The notes beneath the pieces are model-generated. The model was not told the DNA's origin. It was given only the letters and a program-made list of their open reading frames with translations, and searched no databases. A DNA stretch of 64,000 bases. Origin: Undibacterium sp. Jales W-56 (lineage in GTDB: Bacteria; Pseudomonadota; Gammaproteobacteria; Burkholderiales; Burkholderiaceae_D). This document shows, one piece after another, positions 5,855-34,098 of this stretch; the stretch's first letter is position 1; every line of letters starts with the position of its first letter. Both the position numbers and the translations under genes were made by a program. The stretch spans positions 310,001 to 374,000 of the forward strand of contig NZ_JAJLQW010000004.1 in the NCBI RefSeq assembly GCF_025548535.1, in the 5' to 3' direction.

Positions 5855-5980
5855 TGCTAGAGTAGGTGCGGGTTGCACTAAATTAAGCTTCTTAGGATTG
5901 GTGCAGCGTTCCTTTGTTTTGCATCTTGATGATGATACTTACGGACACTTCATTTGTCATCGCGCTTTCGTCAATTGCAC

Positions 5981-6640: not shown

Positions 6641-6652
6641 AGGAAACGCATT

Positions 6653-8560
6653 ATGTCTATGTATCGTCAACTCTGGCTTGCCATTATCCTAAGCACCCTG
6701 CTCGCGTCGATGGGCAGTCTGCTGGCATCGACACTCAGTTCACGAGCGTATTTAAACGAACAATTAAGATTGAAAAACGCTGACAATGCCAGCGTTCTTG
6801 CGTTATCCCTCAGTCAAAAAAACGCCGACCCGGTAGCGCTTGAATTGATGGTCGCCGCGTTATTCGACCGGGGACATTATGAAAGCATCAGCATCGCGAA
6901 TCCCGTTGGTAAAAAAATGGTCGAACGTACGGCTGCGGCAGAAAGAAGCCCGGTGCCCCAATGGTTTATTCAGCTATTCCCGCTCAGCTCTCTCCCCGGT
7001 CAGGCCCAGATCAGCGATGGCTGGAAGCAAGTCGGAACGATTTCTGTAGTCTCGCAAAGCGGTTTCGCGTATCAGGCGCTATGGGATTCGACCTGCCGCA
7101 TGCTGGCAGCGATCGGTCTGGCGGGATTGATTGCCGGCTATCTCGGCACACGAGTGTTGCGCCGCCTGAAACAGCCTTTAGACAACGTCATAGCGCAGGC
7201 GCGCGCCTTGGCAGAACGCCGCTTTGTCACAACACCAGAGTCACTCGTTCCAGAGTTAAGACAACTGTCGATCGCCATGAATGCCTCGGTGAATTTATTA
7301 AAATCCATGTTTGCCGAAGAAGCCTCAAGGCTCGACAGCTTGCGACGCGAGGCCAATACCGATGCCATCACAGGCCTGGCAAACCGGTCGCATTTCATGG
7401 CGCAGCTGCAAGTCATGACAGAGCAGGAAAACGCAGCAGCCGGTTGTCTCGTGATGCTGCATCTGACCCATTTCGCGGAATTGAATCAGCAATGGGGGCG
7501 CGCAAAAACAGATGCCCTGCTCAAAGCGATCGGGCAAGTCTTGCATCAGCAGATAACGGCCTTGGAAGACGGTTTCGCGGCCCGCCTGAACGGTTCTGAT
7601 TTTGCGATTTTATGCCGTCATCCTGACGCAGAACCGTTGGCGCACGCCTTGCTGGAATCGCTCAAAACCACGCTCGATCAGACGGGCGAACAGCCGTGCC
7701 GGGTCTGCATAGGCTACAGTGAATTTGAGTACGGCATGACGGCAGGTAATCTCTTGTCTCAAGTCGACACAGCCATTGCCAGCGTAGAAATGAGCGGTCA
7801 CAGTGACATACGCCGCGCCGCGCCGCTGGGGATTGCGCAGGCACCAAAAAGCCAGGAGGAATGGGCCGGCCTGATACAGCAAGCGCTACAACAAAACAGG
7901 GTCAAGCTCGCCTTATTTCCGGTCGCTGATTTCAATCGCCACTTGCTGCATCAGGAGAGCGCATTGCGGCTGATGTTTGCAGATAACTGGTTCGCCGCAG
8001 CACGCTTTCTGCCGATCGCCGAACGCCTCGGTTTGTCGGCAAAACTCGATCTCAGCGCAGTCACGCTGGGCTTGACGACTCTGGGTCAGCAGCCAGAACT
8101 GCCTGGACTGGCGATCAACTTGTCAGGCTTATCCATACGCGACCCAGGCTTCAGGGAAGCGCTGCGCAAGCTCATGCAAGCCCACGCCGATTTATGTCAT
8201 CGCCTATGGCTGGAAATTCCTGAGCACGGGGTGCTTGCACATCTCGATGCTTTCAAAATATTTGAACAGATGGTACGTCCGTCCGGCTGCAAGATAGGCT
8301 TGAAACATGCCGGCCATCAACTGAGTAAATTACATTTAATCGATGACGTGAAGTTGGATTACTTCAAGATTGACGGTGCTTTTGTGCGCAGCATTGATAG
8401 CAATGAGCGCAATCAGTTATTCATCAAAGGCCTTACCAGCATCATGGGCCGCATAGGTACGCAAGTGATTGCCGAGGGCGTTGTATCCCGGGAAGAATTA
8501 GAGACGCTGGCCAGACTGGGACTGGCAGGCGCAACCGGAGCAGGCGTGAGGACAAGCTGA
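6653..8560 (+). CDS. lapD: LapD-type c-di-GMP receptor with degenerate GGDEF and EAL domains
   Basis: Inner-membrane protein of 635 residues. Order: membrane segment (about 5-27), periplasmic output domain with the GWKQ loop (residues 123-126) that in known LapD proteins grips LapG, second membrane segment (about 148-168), HAMP helix, GGDEF fold whose signature is LNGSDF instead of GGDEF, and an EAL fold whose signature is ESALRL. Both catalytic motifs are ruined, as expected for a receptor that binds c-di-GMP without making or degrading it. ATG 6653 follows an AAAGGA ribosome-binding site. Binding of c-di-GMP would lock LapG away and keep the adhesin on the surface. No adhesin gene lies in the window. 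Confidence 0.9.
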   Translation: MSMYRQLWLAIILSTLLASMGSLLASTLSSRAYLNEQLRLKNADNASVLALSLSQKNADPVALELMVAALFDRGHYESISIANPVGKKMVERTAAAERSPVPQWFIQLFPLSSLPGQAQISDGWKQVGTISVVSQSGFAYQALWDSTCRMLAAIGLAGLIAGYLGTRVLRRLKQPLDNVIAQARALAERRFVTTPESLVPELRQLSIAMNASVNLLKSMFAEEASRLDSLRREANTDAITGLANRSHFMAQLQVMTEQENAAAGCLVMLHLTHFAELNQQWGRAKTDALLKAIGQVLHQQITALEDGFAARLNGSDFAILCRHPDAEPLAHALLESLKTTLDQTGEQPCRVCIGYSEFEYGMTAGNLLSQVDTAIASVEMSGHSDIRRAAPLGIAQAPKSQEEWAGLIQQALQQNRVKLALFPVADFNRHLLHQESALRLMFADNWFAAARFLPIAERLGLSAKLDLSAVTLGLTTLGQQPELPGLAINLSGLSIRDPGFREALRKLMQAHADLCHRLWLEIPEHGVLAHLDAFKIFEQMVRPSGCKIGLKHAGHQLSKLHLIDDVKLDYFKIDGAFVRSIDSNERNQLFIKGLTSIMGRIGTQVIAEGVVSREELETLARLGLAGATGAGVRTS

Positions 8561-8608
8561 TGCCTGCCAGCCGTTTGCCTCAGTCGGTCAAGGCGAAGTA
8601 TGCCGACA

Positions 8609-9037
8609 TCAGCGAGTTTGCTTATTGATCAATTGCTCGCGTAAATCCGGCATGCCGTTCGCTTGACTTTCTGCGCTGGACGCGGGGACTTTGGGCGGTT
8701 CAAAGCCCTTGTTATCCATCAGCTTGATCGTGCGGGTTGTTGCATTCGTATCGAGACAATCGGTATTCGAAAAAACGACTTTCCCTTTGATGATACAACG
8801 ACGTACCTCAGAATCTGCGGTAATCGTCTGTCCTGCCGGATTGCGCAAATTCGCCGCCTCTTTGATCCCGCTGGAAATGGCGTTGCCGGATTTGCTCCAG
8901 CGTGTCAACGCATCGTGAAAAGGTAATTCGCCATAGCGCATGAAATAAAAAAACGCCAAAGCCGCAGCCGTCAGCAACATCATCACGATCGCTGTCATGA
9001 GCAGACTGATGGCACCTGATTGACGCTGCAGAGTCAT
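8609..9037 (-). CDS. Small membrane-anchored protein with a C-terminal Cys-containing domain (unknown)
   Basis: A 142-residue protein I do not recognise with confidence. It has one N-terminal membrane helix (about residues 13-35), then a soluble part with the segment VRRCIIKGKVVFSNTDC, resembling the Cys pair of DUF4124-like periplasmic domains, and a charged C-terminus. The start ATG 9037 overlaps the mtgA stop as ATGA, so translation is probably coupled to mtgA; an in-frame start five codons upstream (9052) is less likely. Last gene of the tonB-like/aroE/mtgA unit. It would sit in the inner membrane with the soluble part in the periplasm. Confidence 0.75.
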   Translation of the reverse strand: MTLQRQSGAISLLMTAIVMMLLTAAALAFFYFMRYGELPFHDALTRWSKSGNAISSGIKEAANLRNPAGQTITADSEVRRCIIKGKVVFSNTDCLDTNATTRTIKLMDNKGFEPPKVPASSAESQANGMPDLREQLINKQTR

Positions 9038-9720
9038 GGCAACTCCGCCCAATTCATACGTTTCAAAATCATTTCACTACGCCTTTGCAAATAAGCAGAT
9101 CCTGTATTTTTATCGAAATATCGCGGCTTGGGCAACATCACCGCGAGCCGCGCTGCCTGCGCCGGACTCAGGGCCGCCGCGCTGATACCGTAATAATGCT
9201 GGGCCGCGGCCTCGGCGCCAAATACGCCGACACCCCACTCGACGACATTCAGATAAATTTCCAGAATCCGTTCTTTGTCCATGCACAGTTCCAGCATGTA
9301 GGTCACGATTAATTCTTGCGCTTTGCGTAGATAGCTACGCTGTCCTGACAGGAACAGATTTTTCGCTAACTGCTGGGTGATCGTGGAACCGCCGGAAACG
9401 ACTTTGCCCTTCTTCTGGTTTTTTTCATAGGCCTTTTGCATGGCCTCCCAGTCGACTCCGTCATGATCGACAAAACTATCGTCCTCAGAAGCGATCACCG
9501 CACGCTTCAGATTGTTCGAGATTTTGCTATACGGCACCCATTTGTACTGAAGCCTGGCATCAGGATTTTTTTCTTGCAACACGCTGAGCTGTTGCCGCAT
9601 GAAACTGGTTGAAGACGGATTGAATTGTACCCACCAGCAAATTTGCAAAAGGAAATACGCCTGCAACAGCACGAACAATAAAATCGGCAACAAGATCAGC
9701 CACGAGAAAAAACGCCTCAT
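9034..9720 (-). CDS. mtgA: Monofunctional peptidoglycan glycosyltransferase
   Basis: Family GT51 enzyme that polymerises lipid II into glycan strands, anchored in the inner membrane by one N-terminal helix (residues 4-25). Motifs: ASEDDSFVDHDGVD (the catalytic Glu region), GGSTITQQLAKNLFL and the RKAQELIVTYMLE helix. 228 residues, normal for MtgA. ATG 9720 gives the typical MRRFF-like start; the reading frame is open further upstream but overlaps aroE. It begins just after the aroE stop and ends in an ATGA overlap with the next small gene. Confidence 0.96.
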   Translation of the reverse strand: MRRFFSWLILLPILLFVLLQAYFLLQICWWVQFNPSSTSFMRQQLSVLQEKNPDARLQYKWVPYSKISNNLKRAVIASEDDSFVDHDGVDWEAMQKAYEKNQKKGKVVSGGSTITQQLAKNLFLSGQRSYLRKAQELIVTYMLELCMDKERILEIYLNVVEWGVGVFGAEAAAQHYYGISAAALSPAQAARLAVMLPKPRYFDKNTGSAYLQRRSEMILKRMNWAELP

Positions 9721-9722
9721 AT

Positions 9723-10595
9723 TTAGCTCGCCGAGGTCGTCAGGGCGCTGCGCAATTCGGCCAGCACCGTCGCCGTTGCCGGCGCCACGCCGCGCCATAA
9801 TTCAAAAGCGACAGCGGCCTGTTCGACCAGCATCCCAAGCCCGTCACGTACCTGCGCGCCGTGTGCCGCAGCAAAGCGCAAGAACGCCGTCGGCTGCGCA
9901 CCGTACATCATGTCGTAGGCCAGGCTGGCGGTCGTAAAAACGGTGGACGGGACAGGCGGCACATCCTCATGCAGGCTGGCCGAAGTCGCATTAATCACCA
10001 CGTCGAACGCACCATCCAGCGCGCTAAAAGAACTGGTTTTGACGCGCGCCACCATCGCTGCATTCTGTGCCTGCTGATGCGCCAGAGCCATCAACTCCTG
10101 CGCTTTCGCGACAGTGCGATTGGCAATCACGAGTTCCTTTGGCTCCTGTTCAAGCAAAGGCAGCAAAGCGCCGCGTGCTGCACCGCCCGCACCCAGCAGC
10201 AATACCCGCTTGCCTTTGATCGCCACACCGGCATTGCGCACGATATCGGCGATCAGTCCCTGGCCATCGGTGTTGTCGCCAAGAATCGTATCGCCATCAA
10301 ATTTCAGCGTATTCACCGCACCGGCAGCCTGCGCACGCGGCGTCAATCGGGTGGCTAAGGCGAATGCGTCGAGTTTAAAAGGCACGGTGACATTCGCACC
10401 TTTTCCGCCAGCCTGGCGAAAAGACAGCACTGCCTCGGCAAAGCCATCCAAAGGCGCCAGCAAATGCCGGTAATCGATGTGCTGCGCGGTCTGAGCGGCA
10501 AAGCTGGCGTGGATCGCCGGCGACTTGCTATGCGCAACCGGATTGCCGATCACCACGTAACGATCGGGCGGCATGATGTCATTGAGTGCGTTCAA
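9723..10595 (-). CDS. aroE: Shikimate dehydrogenase (NADP+)
   Basis: Reduces 3-dehydroshikimate to shikimate in aromatic amino-acid synthesis. The substrate site reads NPVAHSKSPAIHASFA, the catalytic Lys is in GANVTVPFK, and the nucleotide fold has GAGGAARGALLPL. 290 residues. The start at ATG 10595 overlaps the stop of the upstream tonB-like gene as ATGA; an internal ATG seven codons in would give a slightly shorter protein. Pairing of aroE with mtgA is common in betaproteobacteria. Confidence 0.96.
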   Translation of the reverse strand: MNALNDIMPPDRYVVIGNPVAHSKSPAIHASFAAQTAQHIDYRHLLAPLDGFAEAVLSFRQAGGKGANVTVPFKLDAFALATRLTPRAQAAGAVNTLKFDGDTILGDNTDGQGLIADIVRNAGVAIKGKRVLLLGAGGAARGALLPLLEQEPKELVIANRTVAKAQELMALAHQQAQNAAMVARVKTSSFSALDGAFDVVINATSASLHEDVPPVPSTVFTTASLAYDMMYGAQPTAFLRFAAAHGAQVRDGLGMLVEQAAVAFELWRGVAPATATVLAELRSALTTSAS

Positions 10596-11550: not shown

Positions 11551-13698
11551 CTAATCTTCTGCTTTGGCGGGATTGATATGATGCTCGGCTTGCTGTGACA
11601 CAGGTAGCGATTCGATATTGCCGTTTTCTTCTGCCATTGTAGCGCCGTTGGTTTCATCCGCATTCGCCAATGCGGCCTGACCGGCACTGCGATCGAGCGC
11701 CTCGCCGGCAAACTCATCGGCAACAGCGTCAATCACCTCGGCGATGACGCCGTCCGCCGCATCATCGTCGACATCGCCCAAGCCTTCATCGGTGACGCTG
11801 GCCAGCATTTCCAGGATGCGCGCTTCGACGCTCAGATCGACTTCATCCCAGCGCAGGATATCCAGTTTCACCTGTGCGCCACGCGCCATCTGCGGCATGC
11901 CGGGCAAACGGATAATCAGCGGGATATCGACCAGGCGCAGCACTTCATCCTTCAACACCACGGCGTCGACCTGACGTGCCTCTTCTTGCTGCAACCAGCG
12001 CAGGCACCAATATCTTTCCATGCTGGACTGGAAATCGCCGTACGCAGAATAGGCCGCATCGAAACCGGAGACGATGGCGAACAGGTCGGCATCTTTGGGT
12101 TTAAACGGCGCAACCAGCGGCGCCGTCACGCCACTCTGCACACAGGCGATGATTTGCCATTGATTGACCAGATCGGTATACCGGCGCAGCGGTGAAGTGC
12201 TCCAGGCATATTGATCGACGCCCAGACCCTGATGCGGCGCGGCGTGCGTGACCATGCGCACCTGCATCTTGGCAGCCCAGCCGCCGGAACCGCCGCCCTG
12301 CGCACGGTAGATGCCGGGGATGCCGTGATCGGCCATGAATTTACCCCAGGTGCTATTCGCGAAAATCATCAGCTCGGCAACCATCTTGTCGAGCGGCGCG
12401 CCGCGCTTGCGACGCACGATAGAGACGACATCGTCTTCGACGTAGAAATTGAAATCGACGCGATTGGTTTGTTCCGGCTTCAGGCCGAAACTTTCGCGCT
12501 TGGCCATACGCGCCTGTTCAAGCACCAGCGCCCATTGCCAGATTCTGGCGATCTCGGCTTTGTGCGGATACTCGCCAGCGCCATTCGCGAGATTGTCCTC
12601 GGTCACCAGCGCATCGAGGTTGTTGTGACGCAGATTCGATGCCATCGGTATCGCTTCGATCTTGGTCACCGTGTTGACGACAGACCAGTCCGTTGTATTC
12701 AGCGTCACATATAGAGACAAGGCCGGACGCGTCTGCCCTTCGCCGAGGGTGTAAGTTTCGACCAGAGCATCCGGCAGCATGGTGATCTTGTCGCCCGGCA
12801 TATACACGGTGGACATGCGGGAACGCGCAATCGCATCGAGCGCATCGCCGCGCTGTATGCCGAGTGCCGGCGCAGCGATATGGATGCCGACCCGGATCTG
12901 ATCGCCACCCAATTCGACCACGGAAAATGCATCGTCGATCTCGGTCGTGGTGACGTCATCAATCGAAAAAGCCTGCACATCGGCCACCGGTAAATCGTTG
13001 GGCAGAGCTGGAATAGGCGCAGCCGGAAAACCGACGCCTTTAGGAAAATTCTCAAACAAGAATTTAGAAAAATGCAGATCCTTGGCGCTCTTCAAGCCGC
13101 CGCACGCCAGCATCAAGCGGGCGGGCGAACTTTGCAAGGCGTCGCAAGCCTCTGCCATGGCTTTGTATTCGATACTGTTTTTATCCGGTTTGAATAGCAA
13201 TTGCAGCGCCAGCGATTTAAACGCGTCGGGCAGGCGATGCTGTTTCAGTTCTTCGACGTACGCGGCCTGCACGATCAATTGCTGCTTCTTCTTTTCTATG
13301 CCGGCCAAGGCCGCTTTGAGCGACGCCTCCGGCGCTTTTTTATAGCGGCCGCGACCTTTTTTGTAGAAGTAAACCGGTGAGCTATGCAATGCCAGGATCA
13401 GGCCGGCCGCTTCCTCAGGGGTCGGCGCGTGACCAAAGTATTCGGCACCCAATTCGGCGAAACCGAATTCGTCTTCGCCCGCGACTTCCCACAAAAACGC
13501 CAGGTCCATCTCAGCCGCCAGCGCCTTGGCCTGGGCGATCAGGCTCGCCGGATCCGGCGAGCTGAATTGCAACAGCACGTCCTTGGCCTTGACCTTGCTG
13601 CGCTTGCCGCTCGCCAGTTCTACCTGATACGCCTCACCTGCCTGCGACAACACGCTACCTGCCTTGAAATCACCGGATTCTTCAAAAAATAAATTCAT
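11551..13698 (-). CDS. RNB-domain exoribonuclease (RNase II family)
   Basis: 3'-to-5' exoribonuclease-type protein, 715 residues. The N-terminal ~200 residues are a divergent RNA-binding region; the RNB catalytic core begins near residue 245 with VTTTEIDDAFSV (metal-binding acidic residues) and continues through MLPDALVETYTLGEGQTRPALSLYV-type sequence to the SPLRRYTDLVNQWQI motif, which closes the active site. A weak S1-like stretch follows and the last ~70 residues are an acidic, Ala-rich tail. It is shorter and more divergent than RNase R; RNase II-like is the best description. First gene of a minus-strand group with tonB-like, aroE and mtgA. Confidence 0.9.
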   Translation of the reverse strand: MNLFFEESGDFKAGSVLSQAGEAYQVELASGKRSKVKAKDVLLQFSSPDPASLIAQAKALAAEMDLAFLWEVAGEDEFGFAELGAEYFGHAPTPEEAAGLILALHSSPVYFYKKGRGRYKKAPEASLKAALAGIEKKKQQLIVQAAYVEELKQHRLPDAFKSLALQLLFKPDKNSIEYKAMAEACDALQSSPARLMLACGGLKSAKDLHFSKFLFENFPKGVGFPAAPIPALPNDLPVADVQAFSIDDVTTTEIDDAFSVVELGGDQIRVGIHIAAPALGIQRGDALDAIARSRMSTVYMPGDKITMLPDALVETYTLGEGQTRPALSLYVTLNTTDWSVVNTVTKIEAIPMASNLRHNNLDALVTEDNLANGAGEYPHKAEIARIWQWALVLEQARMAKRESFGLKPEQTNRVDFNFYVEDDVVSIVRRKRGAPLDKMVAELMIFANSTWGKFMADHGIPGIYRAQGGGSGGWAAKMQVRMVTHAAPHQGLGVDQYAWSTSPLRRYTDLVNQWQIIACVQSGVTAPLVAPFKPKDADLFAIVSGFDAAYSAYGDFQSSMERYWCLRWLQQEEARQVDAVVLKDEVLRLVDIPLIIRLPGMPQMARGAQVKLDILRWDEVDLSVEARILEMLASVTDEGLGDVDDDAADGVIAEVIDAVADEFAGEALDRSAGQAALANADETNGATMAEENGNIESLPVSQQAEHHINPAKAED

Positions 13699-23953: not shown

Positions 23954-25045
23954 CTATTCAGTTAGGTGAGTCAAAGTATCGGGGGTCAGGTCGGGACAAA
24001 CGGTGGCCGCGCTCTGTAAGGTCAGCGCAGCCAAATGCAGGCCGCGCTGTGCGGCCGTCAACATGTCGGCGTTATCCTGGCACAGCGACCAGCAGACTGC
24101 CGCGGCAAAGGCATCGCCGGCACCGGTAACGTCCTGCACCGCAACGACCGGCGCAGCTAGCTGATGCCAGGCAGGGCCATCGGTCAGCATCACGCCAGCT
24201 GCGCCGAGAGTCACCATCACATCTTGCGCACCTTGGGCCTGTAACAGCCGGCACGCATGCCTGATCTCATCTTCGGTGATCAAAGCCTGTACGGTACGCG
24301 TTTCCAGTTCGGCACGATTCAACATCAACAGGCGCACGCCTTGCAAATTGGCGGGCAAGCGATTCATCTTCGGTTGCGACACGGCGACCAGTATCAGGGC
24401 ATGCTCGCAGCGTATCGCTTCGGCCTGCAAATACTCGATACTGGATTTGGGTAAATTCAAATCTGCCACCGTCATGAGTGCCGCCGACCTCTGGGTTTGA
24501 CGACTCGATAAAAAAGCGACGTCGAGCTGCTCGCATAATTGCATGTGCGCCAGCGCCAGTAGCATGTCGCCATCGGCATCGAGAACCGCGGTATAACTGC
24601 CGCTCCCCTGCCCTGCCAGCGTCAGGCAGGCACTGGTGTCTATCCCGGCAGCACGTGCTTGCCGCAGCAAATCCGCACCTGCGGCATCGTCGCCGGTGGC
24701 GCAGATCAGGCTCGACGGCAAACCCAAGCGCGCCAGGTTCTCGGCGATATTGCGTGCCACGCCGCCAAAACTTTCATGCTGGCTGACCGGATTCGAGGTG
24801 CCCATTTGCAAAGCACCCAAGGTGCGCACTTTGCGATCGATATTGGCACCGCCTATGCACACCACAGGCCGACTCTGAGGAAACACATAGGCACGGCCCA
24901 GCAGACGTTTTTCGCGGATCAGGCTGGCGATATGGCCGGCGACTGCAGAACGCGACAATTGCAGGCGCTCTGCCAACTCCTGCTGCGAGACGAAAGGTTG
25001 CGCGTGGATAATCTGATATACCTGCTCTTTTTTTGATTCGGTCAC
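23954..25045 (-). CDS. psuK: Pseudouridine kinase with N-terminal winged-helix domain
   Basis: PfkB-family kinase fused to a DNA-binding domain. With the GTG start at 25045 it has 363 residues: a winged HTH (about 1-55: ISQQELAERLQLSRSAVAGHIASL-like) followed by the kinase with CIGGANIDRK near its start, VARNIAENLARLG in the lid and the catalytic DVTGAGDAFAAA near residue 300. It phosphorylates pseudouridine for PsuG. The frame is open to 25129 with ATGs at 25087 and 25078, but the predicted transcription start (about 25090) and a GGA six bases before GTG 25045 favour the GTG. The HTH makes autoregulation through the palindrome at 25084-25111 likely. Confidence 0.92.
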   Translation of the reverse strand: MTESKKEQVYQIIHAQPFVSQQELAERLQLSRSAVAGHIASLIREKRLLGRAYVFPQSRPVVCIGGANIDRKVRTLGALQMGTSNPVSQHESFGGVARNIAENLARLGLPSSLICATGDDAAGADLLRQARAAGIDTSACLTLAGQGSGSYTAVLDADGDMLLALAHMQLCEQLDVAFLSSRQTQRSAALMTVADLNLPKSSIEYLQAEAIRCEHALILVAVSQPKMNRLPANLQGVRLLMLNRAELETRTVQALITEDEIRHACRLLQAQGAQDVMVTLGAAGVMLTDGPAWHQLAAPVVAVQDVTGAGDAFAAAVCWSLCQDNADMLTAAQRGLHLAALTLQSAATVCPDLTPDTLTHLTE

Positions 25046-25083
25046 GAGACGTCCAAAAGAGTAATTCAATGAGAACATAACAA

Positions 25084-25111
25084 ACATTTGTTTACAACAA
25101 TAAACAAATGT
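25084..25111. promoter_or_regulatory. Perfect operator palindrome over the psuK promoter
   Basis: Arms ACATTTGTTTA and TAAACAAATGT are perfect complements (11 bp each) around a 6-bp spacer. The palindrome covers the end of the spacer, the -10 hexamer and the start region of the psuK promoter, the position expected for a repressor site. The likeliest binder is the winged-helix domain of PsuK itself; that is inference. Confidence 0.8.
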
Positions 25112-25125
25112 CTTTTTATTGTCAA
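25097..25125 (-). promoter_or_regulatory. Predicted sigma70 promoter for psuK-psuG
   Basis: Reading the minus strand, a perfect -35 TTGACA (25125-25120) and a -10 TATTGT (25102-25097) are separated by exactly 17 bp. Transcription would start near 25090 and leave a leader of about 45 nt before the GTG at 25045. Confidence 0.78.
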
Positions 25126-25273
25126 TCAAACTTGAATTTTTGACGTATTTTTTGCAAGATGTGAATATGGAAGAACGCTATCGACATCTTGATTTGACAC
25201 CACCAGCCATCCCGTGCAAAATCGGCAACATTTTGGATTTGAAGCAAAATTTCAACGCTTTGCAGATTAGTTC

Positions 25274-25360: not shown

Positions 25361-26290
25361 ATGAAGCCACGCATCGCCGTAGTTGGTAGCGTCAATATGG
25401 ACCTGGTGTTTCGCACCCCTCGCATGCCCGCCGTTGGCGAAACCATGCATGGTCATGAATTTCGTCAAATTCCCGGCGGCAAGGGTGCCAATCAAGCCGT
25501 TGCGGCCGCACGCCAGGGAGCGGATGTCAGCTTTATCGGCGCAATTGGCAAAGACGGGTTTGGTGAATTTTCTCAGGCCTGCCTGGCAAAAGAAGGCATA
25601 GAACTCAGCCATCTGGCAAGCATCGATGGCGTCGCCACTGGCGTTGCCGGTATCCTGGTCGAAGACAGCGGCAACAATAGTATCGTTCTGGCCGCAGGCG
25701 CCAATGCCCGCGTGTCGGTTGCGCAAGTAGACCAAGCCACTGCCGCTATCAGTACCGCCAGGCTGTTGTTATGCCAACTGGAAACACCGCTGGCCAGCGT
25801 CGAACGGGCGATCCAGATTGCGCATCAACACCAAGTCGGCGTCATCCTGAACCCGGCTCCTGCGCAAGATTTACGCGACGATTTATTGCAACTGGTCGAC
25901 TACCTGGTAGTCAATGAAACTGAAGCGTCCCAGCTCAGCAACATCGCCGTCACCGATCAGGACAGCGCCAAATCAGCTTCGCAGGCTTTGCTCAAGCGCG
26001 GTGTCGGCACAGTGCTGCTGACCATGGGCGAACATGGCGTGATCATCACGGATAACACGGGCAGCCAATTTATTGCGGCGATCAAGGTCGATGTAGTTGA
26101 CACCACAGCCGCCGGCGATACCTTTGTCGGCGCTCTGGCGGTCGGCCTGGCGAATGGATTGAGCGTGCTGGATGCCAGCGGAGAAGCGCAATACACAGCG
26201 GCGCTGACCGTGACGAAACTGGGTGCGCAAACCTCCATCCCGCATCGGCAGGATGTGCTGGAATTCATGCAGCGCCGCAAGGCTGCATGA
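25361..26290 (+). CDS. rbsK: Ribokinase
   Basis: PfkB-family sugar kinase, 309 residues. Substrate region GSVNMDLVFRTPRMPAVGET and GGKGANQAVAAARQGADV match ribokinase closely; the catalytic Asp is in DTTAAGDTFVGAL. It would phosphorylate ribose released by the nucleoside hydrolase downstream. Starts at ATG 25361 behind AAGAGA. Begins the plus-strand run that leads into the ABC importer; a nucleoside kinase of the same family cannot be excluded. Confidence 0.9.
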   Translation: MKPRIAVVGSVNMDLVFRTPRMPAVGETMHGHEFRQIPGGKGANQAVAAARQGADVSFIGAIGKDGFGEFSQACLAKEGIELSHLASIDGVATGVAGILVEDSGNNSIVLAAGANARVSVAQVDQATAAISTARLLLCQLETPLASVERAIQIAHQHQVGVILNPAPAQDLRDDLLQLVDYLVVNETEASQLSNIAVTDQDSAKSASQALLKRGVGTVLLTMGEHGVIITDNTGSQFIAAIKVDVVDTTAAGDTFVGALAVGLANGLSVLDASGEAQYTAALTVTKLGAQTSIPHRQDVLEFMQRRKAA

Positions 26291-26500: not shown

Positions 26501-27502
26501 ATGAAACTGAAGCATCTTTGCCTGACCATGACCGCTGTATCGAGCCTGTTCGCTGCCAATGTGCGCGCCGCCGATCCTAAGCTGGCCGTGATTTATGACG
26601 CAGGTGGCAAGTTCGACAAATCCTTCAATCAATCGGCCTCGGAAGGCGCAGAGCGCTTCAAAAAAGAAACCAAGATCGCCTACCTCGAAGTGCAGGTCGC
26701 CAGCGACACCCAGACCGAACAGGTGTTGCGTAACCTGGCACGCAAGAACGTCGACCTGATCGCTGCCATCGGTTTTGCCCAAAGCCAGGCGGTACAAAAT
26801 ATCGCAAAAGAATTTCCAAAAACCAAGTTCGTTCTGATCGATGGCGTCGCCGCCGGCGACAACGTCAGTTCCGTCCTGTTCAAGGAGCAAGAAGGTTCGT
26901 ATCTGGTCGGCGTAGCGGCCGCGATGGCCAGCAAATCCAAGAAAATCGGCTTCGTCGGCGGCATGGATATTCCACTGATCCGCACCTTTTCCTGCGGCTA
27001 TACGCAAGGCGCCAAAGCAGTAGACGCCAAAGTCGATGTCACCAGCAATATGGTCGGCACCACAACGTCCGCATGGAACGATCCGGCCAAAGGCGGCGAA
27101 CTGGCACGCGCCCAGTTTGAGCGTGGCGTCGACGTAGTCTTCGCCGCCGCCGGTGGCAGCGGCATGGGCACACTGCAAACCGCCAAAGAAAAAGGCAAGC
27201 TGGCCATCGGCGTCGATTCAAATCAAAACTACCTGTATCCGGGTACCATGCTGACTTCGATGGTCAAGCGCGTTGACCAGGCCATCTACGACAGCTTCAT
27301 GCAAATCAAAAATGGCAACTGGAAAGCCGGCGTCATCAATAAAGGCCTGAAAGAAGGCGGCGTTGACTGGGCCCTGGACAAAGACAATCGCAGTCTGATT
27401 ACACCGGAAATCGAAAAACGCGTGAACGCGGCCAAGCAAGACATCATCAATGGCAAGGTCAAGGTCATCGATTTCCGCGAGGGTAGTAAGTGCCCGGTTT
27501 GA
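26501..27502 (+). CDS. BMP-family nucleoside-binding protein of an ABC importer
   Basis: Periplasmic substrate-binding protein, 333 residues, with a Sec signal peptide (residues 1-23, cleavage likely after VRA). The PnrA/BMP fold shows AVIYDAGGKFDKSFNQSASEGAERF, the GFVGGMDIPLI segment and GVDSNQNYLYPG, as in purine- and nucleoside-binding family members. No lipobox Cys, so it is probably soluble rather than a lipoprotein. Start ATG 26501 has a GAGGAT ribosome-binding site; the open frame further upstream (26444) is not needed. Followed by the ATPase and two permeases. Confidence 0.94.
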   Translation: MKLKHLCLTMTAVSSLFAANVRAADPKLAVIYDAGGKFDKSFNQSASEGAERFKKETKIAYLEVQVASDTQTEQVLRNLARKNVDLIAAIGFAQSQAVQNIAKEFPKTKFVLIDGVAAGDNVSSVLFKEQEGSYLVGVAAAMASKSKKIGFVGGMDIPLIRTFSCGYTQGAKAVDAKVDVTSNMVGTTTSAWNDPAKGGELARAQFERGVDVVFAAAGGSGMGTLQTAKEKGKLAIGVDSNQNYLYPGTMLTSMVKRVDQAIYDSFMQIKNGNWKAGVINKGLKEGGVDWALDKDNRSLITPEIEKRVNAAKQDIINGKVKVIDFREGSKCPV

Positions 27503-27625: not shown

Positions 27626-29185
27626 ATGCACGCAGCCGTAGAATTCCAACAAATCTCGAAACGCTTTGGCGCAGTCCACGCCAATCGCGACGTGAGCTTT
27701 TCTATTGCGCCGGGCAGTATTCATGGCGTCATCGGTGAAAACGGCGCAGGTAAATCGACCCTGATGAGCATCCTGTACGGCTACTATCGCGCCGACAGCG
27801 GCAGGCTGCAGATCAATGGCCAGGCCCAACAGATCCGCAACAGCCAGGAAGCCATCAAGCTTGGTATCGGCATGGTGCACCAGCACTTTATGCTGGTAGA
27901 GAATATGACCGTGCTGGATAACGTGATGCTCGGCTCCGAAGGAGGATTCCGCCTCGCTGCACATCGTACCGAGATCGAAAAAAAGCTGCGTGAGATTTGC
28001 CAGCGCTACGCACTCGAGGTTGATCCATTGAGCAAAATCCAGGATCTCTCAGTCGGCCTGCAACAACGGGTTGAAATCCTCAAGCAGATCTACCGCAGCG
28101 CCAATATCCTGATCCTCGATGAACCGACTGCGGTCCTGACCGTACAAGAAACCGCCTCGCTATTCGATGTGCTGCGCCTGTTTAAAGAGCAGGGCAAGAC
28201 CATCATCCTGATCACGCATAAGCTACAAGAAATTCTCGACATCACGGATCAGGTCACCGTGATGCGCGCAGGCACCGTGGTCGGCTCGGTCGCCACCGCA
28301 ACTACGAATAAAGAAGAACTCGCGAACCTGATGGTGGGCCGTCCTATCCAGACGCAATTGCCGCGTGCGCCGTACGCGCCAGGCCAGACCGTGCTGGAAG
28401 TCAAGCACCTGAATTTACGCAGCAAGCAATCGGTGGCACTCTTAAAAGACATCAACTTCACACTCCGTGCAGGTGAAATTGTCGCCATTGCCGGGGTCTC
28501 AGGCAACGGTCAAAGCGAATTACTGGAAATCCTCTCGGGCATGCGTTTGCCGAGCAGCGGCGAACTGCTAATGCAGGGCAAGGCGCTGCCTATCGCCAGA
28601 CGCAAAGATGCCGACGGTTTGCCGGCACGCTTCCGCGAACTCGGGATTGCCCATGTGCCGGAAGATCGCTTGCGGGACGCGGTCGTAAAGAATTTTTCGG
28701 TGATGATGAATAGCTTTCTCGGCTACCAAAAACAAGTCAAAAAGCGCTTCGGTCTGCTGGACCTGAAAAGCACCCTCAGCCACTGCACCGACCTGCTGAA
28801 AAAATTCGACGTGCGTCCTTCCGATCCGGCATTGCGCATCGCCTTGCTGTCGGGCGGCAACCAGCAAAAGGTGGTGATTGCACGCGAGATCGCTGCCGCC
28901 CCTAAACTGATGCTGGTCGGTCAACCGACCCGCGGCGTCGATATCGGCACCATAGAAAACATCCACGCCCAAATCCTGGCAATGCGCGATGCCGGCGTCG
29001 CGATCTTGCTGGTCTCGGTAGAACTGGAAGAAGTCCGTGCGCTGGCCGACCGCATCCTGGTCATGTCCGACGGCTGCATCACGGGTGAATTGAAGGCGGA
29101 AGAATTCGACGCAACGCGCATCGGCCTGCTGATGGGCGGCTCCTCTGCACACCCGGTCAAGCATAGTCATGAGTTACAGCGATGA
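27626..29185 (+). CDS. ABC importer ATPase with two nucleotide-binding domains (nucleoside/sugar type)
   Basis: 519 residues in two tandem ABC cassettes. The first has an intact Walker A (GENGAGKST, residues 38-46), Q-loop, and LILDEPTAVL Walker B; the second has a degenerate P-loop (GVSGNGQSELLE), but intact LSGGNQQKV signature and GQPTRGVDIG. This asymmetric arrangement is that of the simple-sugar/nucleoside (YufO/NupA-like) ATPases. It energises the two permeases that follow. ATG 27626 chosen because the upstream open frame (from 27509) has no family similarity. Its stop overlaps a decoy ATGA that precedes the next gene. Confidence 0.94.
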   Translation: MHAAVEFQQISKRFGAVHANRDVSFSIAPGSIHGVIGENGAGKSTLMSILYGYYRADSGRLQINGQAQQIRNSQEAIKLGIGMVHQHFMLVENMTVLDNVMLGSEGGFRLAAHRTEIEKKLREICQRYALEVDPLSKIQDLSVGLQQRVEILKQIYRSANILILDEPTAVLTVQETASLFDVLRLFKEQGKTIILITHKLQEILDITDQVTVMRAGTVVGSVATATTNKEELANLMVGRPIQTQLPRAPYAPGQTVLEVKHLNLRSKQSVALLKDINFTLRAGEIVAIAGVSGNGQSELLEILSGMRLPSSGELLMQGKALPIARRKDADGLPARFRELGIAHVPEDRLRDAVVKNFSVMMNSFLGYQKQVKKRFGLLDLKSTLSHCTDLLKKFDVRPSDPALRIALLSGGNQQKVVIAREIAAAPKLMLVGQPTRGVDIGTIENIHAQILAMRDAGVAILLVSVELEEVRALADRILVMSDGCITGELKAEEFDATRIGLLMGGSSAHPVKHSHELQR

Positions 29186-29213
29186 ATCACAGCAATGAAT
29201 CACAGCAATGAAT
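29182..29213 (+). repeat. 13-bp tandem duplication at the ATPase/permease junction
   Basis: The unit ATGAATCACAGCA occurs twice in tandem (29182-29194, 29195-29207) and is followed by a third partial copy, ATGAAT (29208-29213). Because 13 is not a multiple of three, the three ATGs are in different frames: the first overlaps the ATPase stop (ATGA) and stops after 9 codons, the second after 6, and only the third opens the permease. Confidence 0.9.
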
Positions 29214-30284
29214 AATACCGAACTGCCGCGCTGGGCCACAGCGATCGCCCTGCCTTTACTCAACTTGCTGTCCGCATTGCTGGTGGCGGCGTTGGTGATC
29301 TACCTATTGGGTGAGAGTCCGATTGAATCATTAGGTATTTTGCTCAATGCCGCCGTGCTGAATCCCGAAGGCCTGGGCTATACCCTGTTTTACGCCTCGA
29401 CTTTTATTTTTACCGGCTTGTCCGTCTCTATCGCGATGCAGGCGGGCCTGTTCAATATCGGCAGCGAAGGCCAGATGTATATCGGTGGTCTTGGCCTGAC
29501 GCTGGTGTTGCTGGCACTCGATGCCAGTCTGCCTGGCTGGCTGCTGATTCCTTTAGCGATTATCGGCAGCGCGGTGTTCGGCGCGGCCTGGGCCTATCTG
29601 CCCGGCTATCTGCAAGCCAGGCGCGGCAGTCATATCGTGGTGACGACCATCATGTTCAACTTCATTGCGGCGAGCCTGATGAATTTTGCGATCGTGACTT
29701 ACCTGATCCCGACAGGCCAGCAAAACCCCGCCAGCCGCGTCTTCGCCGAAACCGCATGGCTGCCGAAGTTGAATGCGATCTTGCCCGTGCTCGGCGAAAC
29801 CCCGCTGAACATCAGCTTCATCCTGGCGCTGGTGGCGCTGGCGATTTACGGCATTGCAGTGTGGCGCTCTGCCTGGGGCTACCAGTTGCGCGCCACCGGC
29901 ATGAACCAGCATGCCGCCCACTATGCGGGTATCTCGATCACAAAAACCATCTTGCTTGCGATGCTGATTTCCGGCGGGCTGGCCGGTCTGGCGTCGGTGA
30001 ATTCCCTGATGGGTTCCACCCATTACCTGAATCTGAATTTCCCGGCAGGCGCAGGGTTTATCGGTATTGCAATTGCACTGATGGGACGTCAGCATCCGCT
30101 CGGCATTTTGCTGTCATCGATCCTGTTCGGCGCCCTGATTCAGGGCGGCTTCGATCTGTCGCTGGAAAAACCGAATATTCCGACCGAAACGTTTATCTTT
30201 ATCCAGGGCCTGATCATCTTGTTTTGCGGCGCCATGGAAAACCTGTATGCGCCGGTGTTGGCACGCGCACTGAAGCGGAGTTAA
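29208..30284 (+). CDS. ABC importer permease, nucleoside/simple-sugar family (first)
   Basis: Inner-membrane permease of 358 residues with about nine or ten hydrophobic segments, of the BPD_transp_2 type. It contains GLFNIGSEGQMYIGGLG and GYQLRATGMNQHAAHYAG, the conserved cytoplasmic loop motif that contacts the ATPase. Start ATG 29208 is imposed by the 13-bp duplication upstream; there is no good ribosome-binding site, so reinitiation from the preceding gene is likely. Its stop overlaps the second permease start (TAATG). Confidence 0.93.
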   Translation: MNNTELPRWATAIALPLLNLLSALLVAALVIYLLGESPIESLGILLNAAVLNPEGLGYTLFYASTFIFTGLSVSIAMQAGLFNIGSEGQMYIGGLGLTLVLLALDASLPGWLLIPLAIIGSAVFGAAWAYLPGYLQARRGSHIVVTTIMFNFIAASLMNFAIVTYLIPTGQQNPASRVFAETAWLPKLNAILPVLGETPLNISFILALVALAIYGIAVWRSAWGYQLRATGMNQHAAHYAGISITKTILLAMLISGGLAGLASVNSLMGSTHYLNLNFPAGAGFIGIAIALMGRQHPLGILLSSILFGALIQGGFDLSLEKPNIPTETFIFIQGLIILFCGAMENLYAPVLARALKRS

Positions 30285-31255
30285 TGATGTTTGATGATTT
30301 TCATTTCGCCAGCATACTGGTCTCTACCATCCGCAATGCGCCGGTCCTGATTTTCGCCGCGATGGCAGGTCTGTTTGCCGAACGCAGCGGCGTGGTTGAT
30401 CTGGCGCTCGAAGGCAAGATGCTGGCCTCCGCCTTCGCCTCGGCTGCAGTGGCCTACACCACGCAAAATCCGTGGCTAGGCATACTGGCGGGACTCGGCG
30501 TTTCTGTCGCAATCGCTTTGCTGCAAGGCTTCGTCAGCATCACGCAAAAAGGCAATCAGTTGGTCGCCGGTATTGCGATCAATATCGCGATGAGCGGCCT
30601 GACCTTCGTACTCGCCCAGTTCTTCTTTTCGCAAGGCGGCCGCACACCCGATCTCGCTCAGGCGCGCTTGTTCGACATCGCCTTGCCGGGTACCGCCGCC
30701 CTGGAAAACATGCCATTGATAGGCTGGCTCTATGGCCAATTAATCGGTGGTCACAGCGTGCTGGTGTACCTGGCGTTCGCCCTGATCCCGCTGGTGCACT
30801 GGGTGATTTATCACAGCCGCTTCGGCTTACGCTTGCGCGCCGTCGGCGAGAATCCGCATGCGGCCGATGCAGCAGGGATCAACGTCGAACGCACCCGTTT
30901 CATGGCGATGCTATGCGCCGGCGTCCTGTGCTCGTTTTCCGGCGCGTATCTGTCTATCATACAAAGCGGCTTCTTCCTGCGCGACATGTCGGCCGGTAAC
31001 GGTTACCTGGCCTTGACTGCACTGGTGTTCGGCAACTGGCGCCCTTTGCAAACGGCATTGGGCTGCCTGATGTTCGGCTTTTTCACGGCGCTGCAAGTAC
31101 AGATCGAAGGGGTAGAATTCCCCGGTATCGGCAAAGTCCCAGGCTCATTGATACAGATGATTCCGTATGTCGTCACGGTGATCGTATTGGCAGGCCTGAT
31201 GGCGAAATCCGTCGCGCCAAAAGCGATTGGCGTGCCGTTTGTGAAATCGCGTTAA
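30284..31255 (+). CDS. ABC importer permease, nucleoside/simple-sugar family (second)
   Basis: Partner permease of 323 residues, about eight to ten membrane segments. Conserved loop: GLRLRAVGENPHAADAAGINV; also AERSGVVDLALEGKMLASAF near the N-terminus. The start ATG 30284 shares a base with the TAA stop of the first permease and lies behind a GGAG; the much longer open frame from 29756 overlaps the first permease and is not real. With the BMP protein and double ATPase it completes the importer. Confidence 0.94.
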   Translation: MMFDDFHFASILVSTIRNAPVLIFAAMAGLFAERSGVVDLALEGKMLASAFASAAVAYTTQNPWLGILAGLGVSVAIALLQGFVSITQKGNQLVAGIAINIAMSGLTFVLAQFFFSQGGRTPDLAQARLFDIALPGTAALENMPLIGWLYGQLIGGHSVLVYLAFALIPLVHWVIYHSRFGLRLRAVGENPHAADAAGINVERTRFMAMLCAGVLCSFSGAYLSIIQSGFFLRDMSAGNGYLALTALVFGNWRPLQTALGCLMFGFFTALQVQIEGVEFPGIGKVPGSLIQMIPYVVTVIVLAGLMAKSVAPKAIGVPFVKSR

Positions 31256-31519: not shown

Positions 31520-32512
31520 ATGCAAGCAAAACACAAAGTCATTTTTGATACGGACCCAGGTGTGGACGATGCAATGGCGCTGTACTTTGCACTCGCCCAT
31601 CAAGACATCGACGTGGTCGGCATCACCACCACTTTCGGTAACGTGTATGTAGAACAGGCGACGATCAATGCCTTGTATCTGACCCGTATCGCAGGTCGCA
31701 GCATCCCGGTAGCACAGGGCGTCAACGTACCATTCGCCAAAGCAGCCGGTACCCCGCCGGATTTTATCCACGGTGCCGACGGTCTCGGTAACTTGACCAA
31801 CCGCATCGAGGTCGGCGGTAAAGCCGAAGTCGAGAGCGCGGCGGAATTCATCGTCAAAATGGCACGCCAGCATCCGGGTGAAATCACCCTGGTTGCAGTC
31901 GGTCCGCTGGGCAACCTGGCTTTGGCGCTGAAGATGGAGCCGCAACTGCCTAAGCTGCTGAAAAAAGTCGTGTTGATGGCCGGTGCCGTCGATGAGCCTG
32001 GCAATGTATCGCCGGTCGCCGAAGCCAATGTCTGGAACGATCCTGATGCAGCGGACCTGGTGTTTACCGCAGGCTGGGATCTGACCATGGTCGGCCTGGA
32101 CGTCACCCATCGCGTGGTATTGCCATCGAGCTTCTTCGCCCGTCTGGCAGTGCAGCACCAGCACGTCGCGATGGATACCCTGTCGCACGCGGTGAATTTC
32201 TATGCGAACTTCTACCAGAGCATCCGCCCCGACCTCGGTCATGCCTGCTATGGCCATGATGTACTGGCGTTTGTGTGGCTGGTCGCGCCGGAGATGTTCG
32301 AAACGCAAAATGGTCGTGTGCGCGTCGCCAAAGAGGGTATCGGCAACGGTCAGACCATGATGGCAAAACTCGCCATCCCTTACCCGCAAGCGGGCTGGGA
32401 AATCAGCAAGCCGGAGACCCGCGTTTGCATGAAAATCGATGCCGATGCCTGCGTCAAATTGATCGATGCGACCTTGTCCGGCAACTGGTTACAGCCAGCG
32501 CTGAACCAGTAA
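31520..32512 (+). CDS. Inosine-uridine-preferring nucleoside hydrolase family protein
   Basis: Hydrolyses the N-glycosidic bond of ribonucleosides to base and ribose. 330 residues. The calcium-site signature is FDTDPGVDDAMAL (Asp10, Asp12, Asp16, Asp17), and the distal active-site pair lies in CYGHDVLAFVWL. The FGNVYVEQAT and MAGAVDEPGNVSPVAEANVWNDPDAA stretches are typical. Good ribosome-binding site (GGAGAA) before ATG 31520. Being downstream of the importer suggests it acts on incoming nucleosides in the cytoplasm; it has no signal peptide. Confidence 0.95.
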   Translation: MQAKHKVIFDTDPGVDDAMALYFALAHQDIDVVGITTTFGNVYVEQATINALYLTRIAGRSIPVAQGVNVPFAKAAGTPPDFIHGADGLGNLTNRIEVGGKAEVESAAEFIVKMARQHPGEITLVAVGPLGNLALALKMEPQLPKLLKKVVLMAGAVDEPGNVSPVAEANVWNDPDAADLVFTAGWDLTMVGLDVTHRVVLPSSFFARLAVQHQHVAMDTLSHAVNFYANFYQSIRPDLGHACYGHDVLAFVWLVAPEMFETQNGRVRVAKEGIGNGQTMMAKLAIPYPQAGWEISKPETRVCMKIDADACVKLIDATLSGNWLQPALNQ

Positions 32513-32531: not shown

Positions 32532-33374
32532 ATGTTTATCGAACCAGTTGATTACCGCAGTCCGGATGCGGCCAAAAAATTCACCGAAAGCCTGCACCAC
32601 ACCGGCTTTGGCGTCCTGACCAATCATCCCTTGTCGCAAGATTTGCTCAACACCATTTACAAGGAATGGTATGACTTCTTCCAGACCGACGCGAAGAACA
32701 AATACGACTTCGATGCCGAAAAAATGGACGGCTATTTTTCGCCAAAAATTTCTGAAACCGCCAAGGGCAATACCAAGCGCGACCTGAAAGAGTTTTACCA
32801 TATCTACCCCGAAGGCCGCTATCCCGCCGAGGTATCGGATGCGGCGCGTCAGTACTACGATCAGGGCAACCAGCTCGCGACCGAATTGCTGCAATGGGTG
32901 GAGGATCACACGCCGGCCGACATCAAAGCCAAATACTCGATGCCGCTATCCGACATGATCACCGACAGCGACCTGACCTTGCTGCGGGTATTGCATTATC
33001 CGCCGTTGCGTGGCGATGAAGAGCCGGATGCGGTGCGCGCGGCAGCGCATGGCGACATCAATCTGCTGACCGTATTGCCGGCGGCGACGCAGGCAGGTTT
33101 GCAGGTGTTGGGCAAAGACGATACCTGGCATGATGTGCCCTGCGACTTCGGCATGCTGATCGTGAATATCGGCGACATGCTCGATGAAGCGTCGCAAGGT
33201 TACTACCCGTCGACCATCCATCGCGTCTTGAATCCGACCGGCGAAGAAGCGAAAAAATCGCGTATTTCCTTGCCGCTGTTCCTGCATCCGCGTCCTGACG
33301 TGGTGCTGTCGGAGCGTCATACTTCCGGCAGTTATCTGCAAGAACGTTTGAAAGAACTCGGCGTCAAGAAATAA
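32532..33374 (+). CDS. 2-oxoglutarate/Fe(II)-dependent oxygenase, isopenicillin-N-synthase-like
   Basis: 280 residues of the IPNS-like oxygenase fold. The iron facial triad is His173, Asp175 (AAHGDINLL) and His230 (PSTIHRVLNP); the 2-oxoglutarate anchor is Arg244-x-Ser246 (KSRISLP). N-terminal DIOX_N-like part present. Ribosome-binding site GAGGAGAG precedes ATG 32532. It sits 19 bp after the nucleoside hydrolase and before cytidine deaminase, so a substrate among nucleosides, bases or their breakdown products is the natural inference. Characterised relatives of the fold include thymine 7-hydroxylase and pyrimidine deoxynucleoside hydroxylases, but this protein could equally do something else. 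Confidence 0.9.
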   Translation: MFIEPVDYRSPDAAKKFTESLHHTGFGVLTNHPLSQDLLNTIYKEWYDFFQTDAKNKYDFDAEKMDGYFSPKISETAKGNTKRDLKEFYHIYPEGRYPAEVSDAARQYYDQGNQLATELLQWVEDHTPADIKAKYSMPLSDMITDSDLTLLRVLHYPPLRGDEEPDAVRAAAHGDINLLTVLPAATQAGLQVLGKDDTWHDVPCDFGMLIVNIGDMLDEASQGYYPSTIHRVLNPTGEEAKKSRISLPLFLHPRPDVVLSERHTSGSYLQERLKELGVKK

Positions 33375-33384
33375 AGTTTCAAAA

Positions 33385-33513
33385 GGGAGCTTCTAAAAAC
33401 CTAATCGAGATGCAGCGCTAGGCAGGGTTATCAAATCGACGCAGCAATACGTCGGTATTGCGAGGCTTTGCAACGACACGATGCGTTCGAGTATGGAGTT
33501 TTTAGAAATTCCC
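33385..33513. repeat. MITE-like element with TTCTAAAAAC ends
   Basis: A 129-bp intergenic element bounded by GGGAGCTTCTAAAAAC (33385-33400) and its near-complement GTTTTTAGAAATTCCC (33498-33513), 14 of 16 positions pairing. Inside is a perfect 7-bp hairpin GCAATAC/GTATTGC (33444-33461). No coding capacity. Only one copy is in the window. It occupies part of the 307-bp gap between the oxygenase and cdd. Confidence 0.78.
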
Positions 33514-33681: not shown

Positions 33682-34098
33682 ATGACCACCCAAGACCTCA
33701 CGCAACATTTGATCGCCGAAGCCCAGCAAGCCCGCGAACGCGCCTACGCGCCCTACTCCAGGTTTAAAGTCGGTGCCGCGGTTCAGACCAAGGACGGCAC
33801 CATCTTCCGCGGCTGCAATATCGAGAACGCCTCCTACGGCCTGTGCAATTGCGCCGAGCGCACCGCCTTGTTCAGCGCGATTGCAGCCGGCTATCGTCCG
33901 GGCGATTTCGCTGCAATCGCCGTCACCGGCGACACCGACGGCCCGATCGCGCCCTGCGGCGCCTGCCGCCAGGTCATCATCGAACTCGGCGGACCGGCAT
34001 TGCCTGTGGTGCTGAGCAATTTAAAAGGCGAAATCAAACACACCACGGCCGGCGCGCAATTGCCGGATGCGTTTTATCTGGCGCCGGACGCCAATTAA
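33682..34098 (+). CDS. cdd: Cytidine deaminase
   Basis: Converts cytidine and deoxycytidine to uridine and deoxyuridine. 138 residues, tetrameric class. Zinc and catalytic residues: Cys57-Ala-Glu59 (LCNCAERTAL) and Cys92-x-x-Cys95 (PCGACRQVI); FKVGAAV near the N-terminus. Ribosome-binding AAAGAGAA before ATG 33682. Closes the nucleoside salvage island; the 307-bp gap before it, with a repeat element, means it may have its own promoter. Confidence 0.97.
   Translation: MTTQDLTQHLIAEAQQARERAYAPYSRFKVGAAVQTKDGTIFRGCNIENASYGLCNCAERTALFSAIAAGYRPGDFAAIAVTGDTDGPIAPCGACRQVIIELGGPALPVVLSNLKGEIKHTTAGAQLPDAFYLAPDAN

Follow-up and report, generated by a model that had tools for sequence, protein, structure and literature searches.

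The window examined here, a stretch of 64,000 nucleotides from Undibacterium sp. Jales W-56 (contig NZ_JAJLQW010000004.1), contains a gene for a predicted Fe(II)- and 2-oxoglutarate (2OG)-dependent oxygenase within an island of nucleoside import and salvage genes. The genes of the island are listed with their positions in the window.

25361-26290, forward strand: ribokinase (passes TIGR02152)
26504-27502, forward strand: BMP/PnrA-like substrate-binding protein
27626-29185, forward strand: double ATPase of the ATP-binding cassette (ABC) importer (Pfam scan from 27629)
29208-30284, forward strand: ABC permease 1 (BPD_transp_2)
30284-31255, forward strand: ABC permease 2 (BPD_transp_2); start set at 30284, the mechanical open reading frame (ORF) being longer
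31520-32512, forward strand: nucleoside hydrolase (IU_nuc_hydro; best NCBIfam match RihC, under its cut-off)
32532-33374, forward strand: predicted 2OG/Fe(II) oxygenase (DIOX_N and 2OG-FeII_Oxy) of 280 aa, with H173/D175/H230, R244-I-S246, R152 and Y156
33682-34098, forward strand: cytidine deaminase (passes TIGR01354)

The binding protein, the double ATPase and the two permeases stand in one run and make up a BMP-type importer operon. The hydrolase gene ends 19 bp before the start of the oxygenase gene on the same strand. The cytidine deaminase gene begins 307 bp after the end of the oxygenase gene and, because of this gap, is possibly on a separate transcript. A preliminary description of the sequence had placed a complete HxD...H and RxS oxygenase between a nucleoside hydrolase and a cytidine deaminase, downstream of a nucleoside ABC importer; both the motifs and, by Pfam and NCBIfam analysis of the flanks, the setting were confirmed. 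Assignment of the transporter as a vitamin B6 importer was rejected, as the NCBIfam 'putative B6' models matched far under their cut-offs. Scans for promoters and terminators gave sites no more numerous than in shuffled sequences.

According to the ORF list of the window, the oxygenase gene is intact and fits its coordinates exactly. It starts with ATG, which is preceded by AGAGGAGAG. The product matched 2OG-FeII_Oxy (E 1.8e-17) and DIOX_N (E 1.8e-10), both above the cut-offs (63.9 and 41.9 bits against 23 and 27.3). At E<=1e-3, PF03171 and PF14226 were the only Pfam families matched, and no NCBIfam family was detected. The motifs H173-G-D175, H230 and R244-I-S246 are complete, and the H/D/H and RxS columns are kept in an alignment of 57 orthologs, S246 being replaced by Thr in a single row. 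In building the 57-row alignment, downstream starts in the homologous Met-region were taken for L115, L119, L121, L124, L125 and L156; alignment A1 does not include L035. By its domains and motifs the protein is an IPNS-like Fe(II)/2OG oxygenase, the activity itself being predicted. The AlphaFold model has a mean pLDDT of 91.3. dN/dS was 0.037, 0.049 and 0.078 in comparisons with three species of Undibacterium (rough values, given dS of 1.1-1.45) and 0.151 against locus L112; against L039 the ratio could not be computed due to saturated dS.

The closest solved structure is 3ON7 (SO_2589 of Shewanella oneidensis; phmmer E 5.8e-115 over residues 2-278), which is 58% identical to the window protein and matched its AlphaFold model with VIA Z 37.0. 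This ortholog is known as a structure only, a putative oxygenase, and appears among enzymes of undefined function in a passage of PMC10467617. In open-licence PMC papers a search on SO_2589 returned unrelated text matches only, and nothing on the function of the 3ON7-type family was found there.

The oxygenase is present in 41/43 Undibacterium genomes, with an internal stop in none of the 41 matches. Among 145 genomes of the family, 14 carry an ortholog, and in all of them a hydrolase match lies directly upstream on the same strand. A 15th family match (G044, 36% identical) was left out of the ortholog count, as was L164 (32%). Genome G000 (4.19 Mb) has a single hydrolase match at E<=1e-30. 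Across the phylum, 32 of the 398 sampled genomes carry an oxygenase match at E<=1e-40. In locus L112 an adenosine deaminase gene follows the oxygenase gene after 21 bp.

Several side observations were made on these loci. Between the oxygenase and cytidine deaminase genes of the window, a stretch of 129 bp (33385-33513) is bounded by 16-nt inverted repeats, GGGAGCTTCTAAAAAC and GTTTTTAGAAATTCCC, which are 88% complementary and 97 nt apart; it is present in single copy within the window and resembles a small non-coding insertion element. A divergent HTH-pfkB gene resembling sugar/pseudouridine kinases adjoins the operon at 23954-25129 on the reverse strand (PRK09954-like, far under the cut-off), and relatives occupy the same position in at least 11 of 27 Undibacterium-type loci. 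In a subgroup of Undibacterium (L035-L037, L039-L041) the operon has a Udk-like kinase ahead of ribokinase, 28-31% identical to the Udk of L145; that of L035 scores under the udk cut-offs.

The preliminary description had called for a check of conservation of the neighbourhood, and linkage to nucleoside genes was indeed found in 55 of 102 oxygenase neighbourhoods: all 28 loci of Undibacterium and its kin (window included), all 7 from further Oxalobacteraceae, 7/28 from other orders of the class, 12/22 from the class of genome G348 (the Tistrella plasmid pTM2 being among the 22), and locus L043. No nucleoside-salvage gene adjoins the other 47, which include all 16 loci taken from the remaining families of the order. 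The condition set in the preliminary description for its refutation, a lack of conservation with the nucleoside genes in relatives, was thus not borne out, the linkage holding in part of the carriers. Locus L034 was counted as linked although an ORF of 65 aa is called between its hydrolase and oxygenase genes. We infer that the class of G348 is Alphaproteobacteria, from match coordinates of G1171 equal to those of the Tistrella mobilis plasmid.

The linked neighbourhoods are built in several ways (RBK, ribokinase; BMP, binding protein; ATP, importer ATPase; perm, permease; NH, nucleoside hydrolase; OXY, oxygenase). Undibacterium and the Oxalobacteraceae share the order RBK-BMP-ATP-perm-perm-NH-OXY. 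Locus L118 has an operon with a far more distant ABC/hydrolase set (hydrolase 38% and ATPase 34% identical to those of the window), in contrast to six other family genomes outside the genus, where the hydrolase is 70-77% identical. Downstream of the hydrolase and oxygenase, L118 also encodes a TonB-dependent receptor, an alpha/beta hydrolase and another nucleoside hydrolase, which is divergent (5639-10304, forward strand). The alphaproteobacterial-type order, RBK-NH-OXY-BMP-ATP-perm-perm(-CDD), was found at 11 loci; two of these (L172, L175) are incomplete as called, and L209, which reaches the contig end before the hydrolase, was counted on its BMP. In seven genomes of the gammaproteobacterial family f13 the order is Udk-NupC-OXY, and Udk and NupC of L145 pass TIGR00235 and TIGR00804, respectively. 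In the genome of L155, also of this type, a NupC match reads through one TAA (G489:C33:261322-262527). Locus L205 has NupC-OXY with a gap of 5 bp, its NupC being just 32% identical to that of L145. Finally, L043 holds a purine cluster, ADA-PRT-OXY-NH, adjoined by guanine deaminase, urate oxidase, OHCU decarboxylase and XdhC. Beside its urate oxidase and guanine deaminase, a second DIOX_N/2OG-FeII_Oxy protein (11792-12706, reverse strand; 27% identical to that of the window) is possibly another oxygenase of purine breakdown.

In a tree of 76 rows the linked label requires 7 changes, and the supported branches force at least 3 changes for the ABC/hydrolase type and at least 2 for the NupC type. 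L129, near-identical to L131, was dropped, and the tree leaves gains and losses undirected.

By this comparative evidence, assignment of the oxygenase to nucleoside salvage is well supported, and it probably acts on nucleosides. Its chemistry is a ranked guess. Ribose-type compounds are the substrates of nucleoside hydrolase, uridine kinase and ribokinase alike, so that an oxygenase recurring beside one or another of the three plausibly makes ribonucleosides. An imported nucleoside that the adjacent ribonucleoside enzymes cannot use would be oxidised by the oxygenase and passed to nucleoside hydrolase and ribokinase in the window, or to uridine kinase in other lineages. The reaction tentatively put forward as the likeliest is 2'-hydroxylation of 2'-deoxyribonucleosides, a quite possible assignment that stays well short of probable: deoxyribonucleoside, 2OG and O2 would give ribonucleoside, succinate and CO2; the hydrolase would split the ribonucleoside into base and ribose, and ribokinase would convert ribose to ribose-5-phosphate. 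The deo pathway would be bypassed by this route. That these orthologs constitute a bacterial gene family for deoxyribonucleoside 2'-hydroxylation, an O2-dependent bypass of deo feeding hydrolase and ribokinase or uridine kinase, is a slightly more doubtful proposal. Support is suggested by the recurrent linkage, by an exchange of partners of NupC, by the distribution of deoC, and by fungal and CtNTH precedents.

Among these, 2'-hydroxylation is favoured mainly because of the exchange of partners in family f13. In the unlinked f13 genomes NupC and deoC are on one strand, 42-151 bp apart (5/5), and both deoC and DeoA are present. In the seven linked f13 genomes a related NupC is placed between Udk and the oxygenase, and neither deoC nor DeoA-type PYNP_C scored over the cut-off in any of them (one 21-bit fragment in each search). 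In f13 NupC has thus exchanged the deo pathway for uridine kinase and the oxygenase as its partner. As the linked clade is a single lineage, this is essentially one event. NupC lies within ~2.2 kb of deoC in 16 of the 17 gammaproteobacterial deoC-positive carriers in which NupC was searched (families f13, f21, f31 and f34); in the 17th, G483, the two genes are on different contigs. Among all carriers tested, deoC was found in 12/63 linked versus 28/47 unlinked genomes. DeoA exceeded the Pfam cut-off in 2/22 linked (G032 with 53 bits, G060 with 27) and 26/37 unlinked genomes, five f103 rows of the latter having 38-40 bits. In a test of independent pairs, for which DeoA was counted at >=50 bits only, all pairs differing in linkage and deoC/deoA did so in the predicted direction.

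A number of observations weigh against 2'-hydroxylation. The contrast in deoC is phylogenetically confounded, and with 4 independent pairs significance is out of reach (median p 0.25). Unlinked carriers of families f103, f25 and f20 are without deoC as well (0/10), and so are most Oxalobacteraceae that do not carry the oxygenase (14/20). Most gammaproteobacterial carriers with deo genes have the oxygenase at a different place; it is therefore no simple substitute for deo. As deoC also occurs in 11/37 Undibacterium carriers tested, a strict replacement of deo by the oxygenase is argued against, and this version of the proposal was weakened. Of the 15 family genomes with a hydrolase ortholog at least 69% identical, two (G121 and G133) lack the oxygenase but retain ribokinase and hydrolase, with unrelated genes following. 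The 47 unlinked neighbourhoods count in the same sense, and finally, the ribonucleoside enzymes are accounted for equally well by 2'-O-demethylation.

This last reaction is the main rival, although it is rather unlikely. The substrates would be free ribose-methylated nucleosides from turnover of rRNA and tRNA: the 2'-O-methyl group would be hydroxylated, formaldehyde would leave and the ribonucleoside would go to the hydrolase or uridine kinase, by the same logic as with 2'-hydroxylation. Carriers with deo genes and carriers lacking them could both profit from it, in agreement with the occurrence of both kinds, and PMC12709175, published in 2025, describes a bacterial PhyH-family enzyme, FJS, performing it on free 2'-O-methylnucleosides. 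The window protein belongs to a different Pfam family, and with no PF05721 match at E<=1e-3 a PhyH-type demethylase was rejected by family; the reaction could nevertheless have arisen twice. Demethylation does not predict that NupC is exchanged between deoC and the oxygenase, and nucleoside hydrolases cleaving 2'-O-methylnucleosides directly are cited in the same source.

An unlikely alternative of another kind is an oxygenase of the base moiety, acting before or after the hydrolase, either similar to thymine-7-hydroxylase (T7H) or removing N- or C-methyl groups from modified bases or nucleosides. The likeness to fungal thymine hydroxylase noted in the preliminary description stood at the level of the fold. 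After 3ON7, the next VIA matches were 3OOX (undefined, Z 30.4) and Neurospora T7H (Z 30.3), with SpoC close behind (Z 29.0); Foldseek likewise placed 3ON7, 3OOX and T7H first. T7H ranks first among characterised structures, nearly tied with others. The Neurospora crassa enzyme (5C3O-5C3S; 27% identity) shares the IPNS-like fold, the facial triad and the 2OG-binding Arg/Ser/Tyr. R152, Y156, F250 and E87 of the oxygenase align with Arg190, Tyr194, Phe292 and Glu122 of T7H; F250 and R152 are invariant in 57/57 orthologs and E87 is kept in 56/57. Residues of the Phe292/Arg190 type occur commonly throughout the broader family of this fold.

The likeness did not extend to the base-capping residue: the equivalent of Tyr217 is Ile176 in 57/57 orthologs, which makes a plain T7H unlikely, and that candidate was rejected. 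Across T7Hs the cap is Tyr, Phe or Trp, as stated in a passage of PMC4787775. The equivalent of Asn294 is His in 56/57 orthologs. Position 65, aligned with Asn87, is Gln, Met, Tyr or His in most orthologs: Gln prevails in unlinked rows (33/35 'rest', 7/9 alpha, 2/2 f9) and in the NupC-linked f13 rows (7/7), and occurs in 3/11 linked alpha rows; Undibacterium has Met or Tyr (0/28 Gln), other Oxalobacteraceae have no Gln either (0/6), residues over both groups being Met/Tyr/Phe/Leu, and L118, L205 and L043 have His. This variation may reflect an altered base contact in hydrolase-linked forms, the alignment with T7H being approximate there. Furthermore, the conserved neighbours of the window oxygenase act on nucleosides, as does the partner in the Udk-NupC lineages, not on bases. 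Isoorotate decarboxylase was not noticed in the conserved gene sets, no genome-wide search for it having been made. The neighbours in L043, which belong to purine degradation, are in favour of a base substrate.

The third alternative, also improbable, is that linkage reflects mere co-regulation or that the substrate is not a nucleoside (perhaps an amino acid or small acid, as with relatives of the ethylene-forming enzyme), the gene having been recruited by chance or for reasons of stress. An ancestral ethylene-forming enzyme, 9OVH, is among the nearest PDB sequences (E 1.1e-24), and the unlinked neighbourhoods are diverse. By family they include MetG<OXY>Mrp>Dcd (f103), MnmA-OXY (f120), Maf-RNase G-CysE-OXY (f107), DUF2238/DnaJ (f21), MsrAB (f31) and GGDEF-EAL (f13); other neighbours are MOSC/EamA, ROK/LysR, AlgH/DsbA, arginase, succinyl-CoA ligase, GNAT, Lon and RapA, and the remainder include MscS, patatin/M3 peptidase, Hsp70/ferredoxin, lipase/ValRS and LysE. 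However, catalytic and most pocket-aligned positions are identical in linked and unlinked orthologs, and several differently built nucleoside contexts, with two NupCs only 32% identical, are hard to explain by chance. Unlinked neighbourhoods were called by blastp against labelled nucleoside proteins, with Pfam on representative neighbours, so that a divergent nucleoside gene could escape. In the plasmid collection 13 records matched; Tistrella pTM2, the one opened, has no nucleoside neighbour, and G1171 was counted as unlinked on account of its match coordinates, equal to those of pTM2.

Two further contexts are worth recording. In all three f120 genomes (L130, L133 and L134) the oxygenase gene starts 10-32 bp after MnmA (Pfam on L130), and in L130 the next ORF starts immediately. 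MnmA serves tRNA 2-thiouridine synthesis. Its adjacency could be either a link to modified nucleosides or that of a housekeeping neighbour. In L198 a 2Fe-2S ferredoxin-like gene (Fer2; 8884-9222, forward strand) lies directly 3' of the oxygenase, and L195 and L200 have ORFs of 111 aa, similar in size, after theirs.

With these results, an oxygenase family of undefined function, structurally represented since 2010, gains a pathway and a short list of candidate substrates. If it is a 2'-hydroxylase, bacteria would possess an oxidative route from DNA to RNA nucleosides that bypasses deo and needs no reversal of ribonucleotide reductase chemistry. A gene would also be gained for a reaction known in fungal extracts, neither an assigned gene nor a sequence having been found in searches of the open-licence PMC literature. 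If it is a demethylase, it would represent a second, unrelated oxygenase family recycling 2'-O-methylnucleosides. With either reaction at the 2' position, an enzyme that could be named would be carried by many genomes.

Among known systems, FJS and PHYHD1 resemble the proposed function as 2OG oxygenases of free modified nucleosides with bacterial members, but they are of the PF05721 family (PMC12709175). The preliminary description had suggested that a bacterial enzyme for modified nucleosides or bases would be new; this claim is restricted by FJS, the window enzyme, with its putative nucleoside substrate, being of another Pfam family. AdaV and CtNTH have a related oxygenase fold and perform C2' chemistry on deoxynucleotides; they differ in acting on nucleotides and in chlorinating them. 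AdaV (7W5S) appeared in both the fold (Z 26.4) and the sequence match lists of the oxygenase. In halogenases of this type the HxD carboxylate is replaced, so that chloride can bind the iron. Asp175 is invariant in 57/57 orthologs, which argues against a nucleotide C2'-halogenase. CtNTH, a dGMP C2'-halogenase, forms traces of GMP from dGMP via hydroxylation, according to a passage of PMC11186838. The closest parallel in chemistry would be the fungal enzyme, whose reaction is the very one proposed for the window oxygenase. The fungal pyrimidine deoxyribonucleoside 2'-hydroxylase is classified as EC 1.14.11.3 and acts on deoxyuridine or thymidine. In the fungal pathway, as outlined in part of PMC4787775, it converts thymidine to thymine ribonucleoside, which is then hydrolysed to thymine and ribose.
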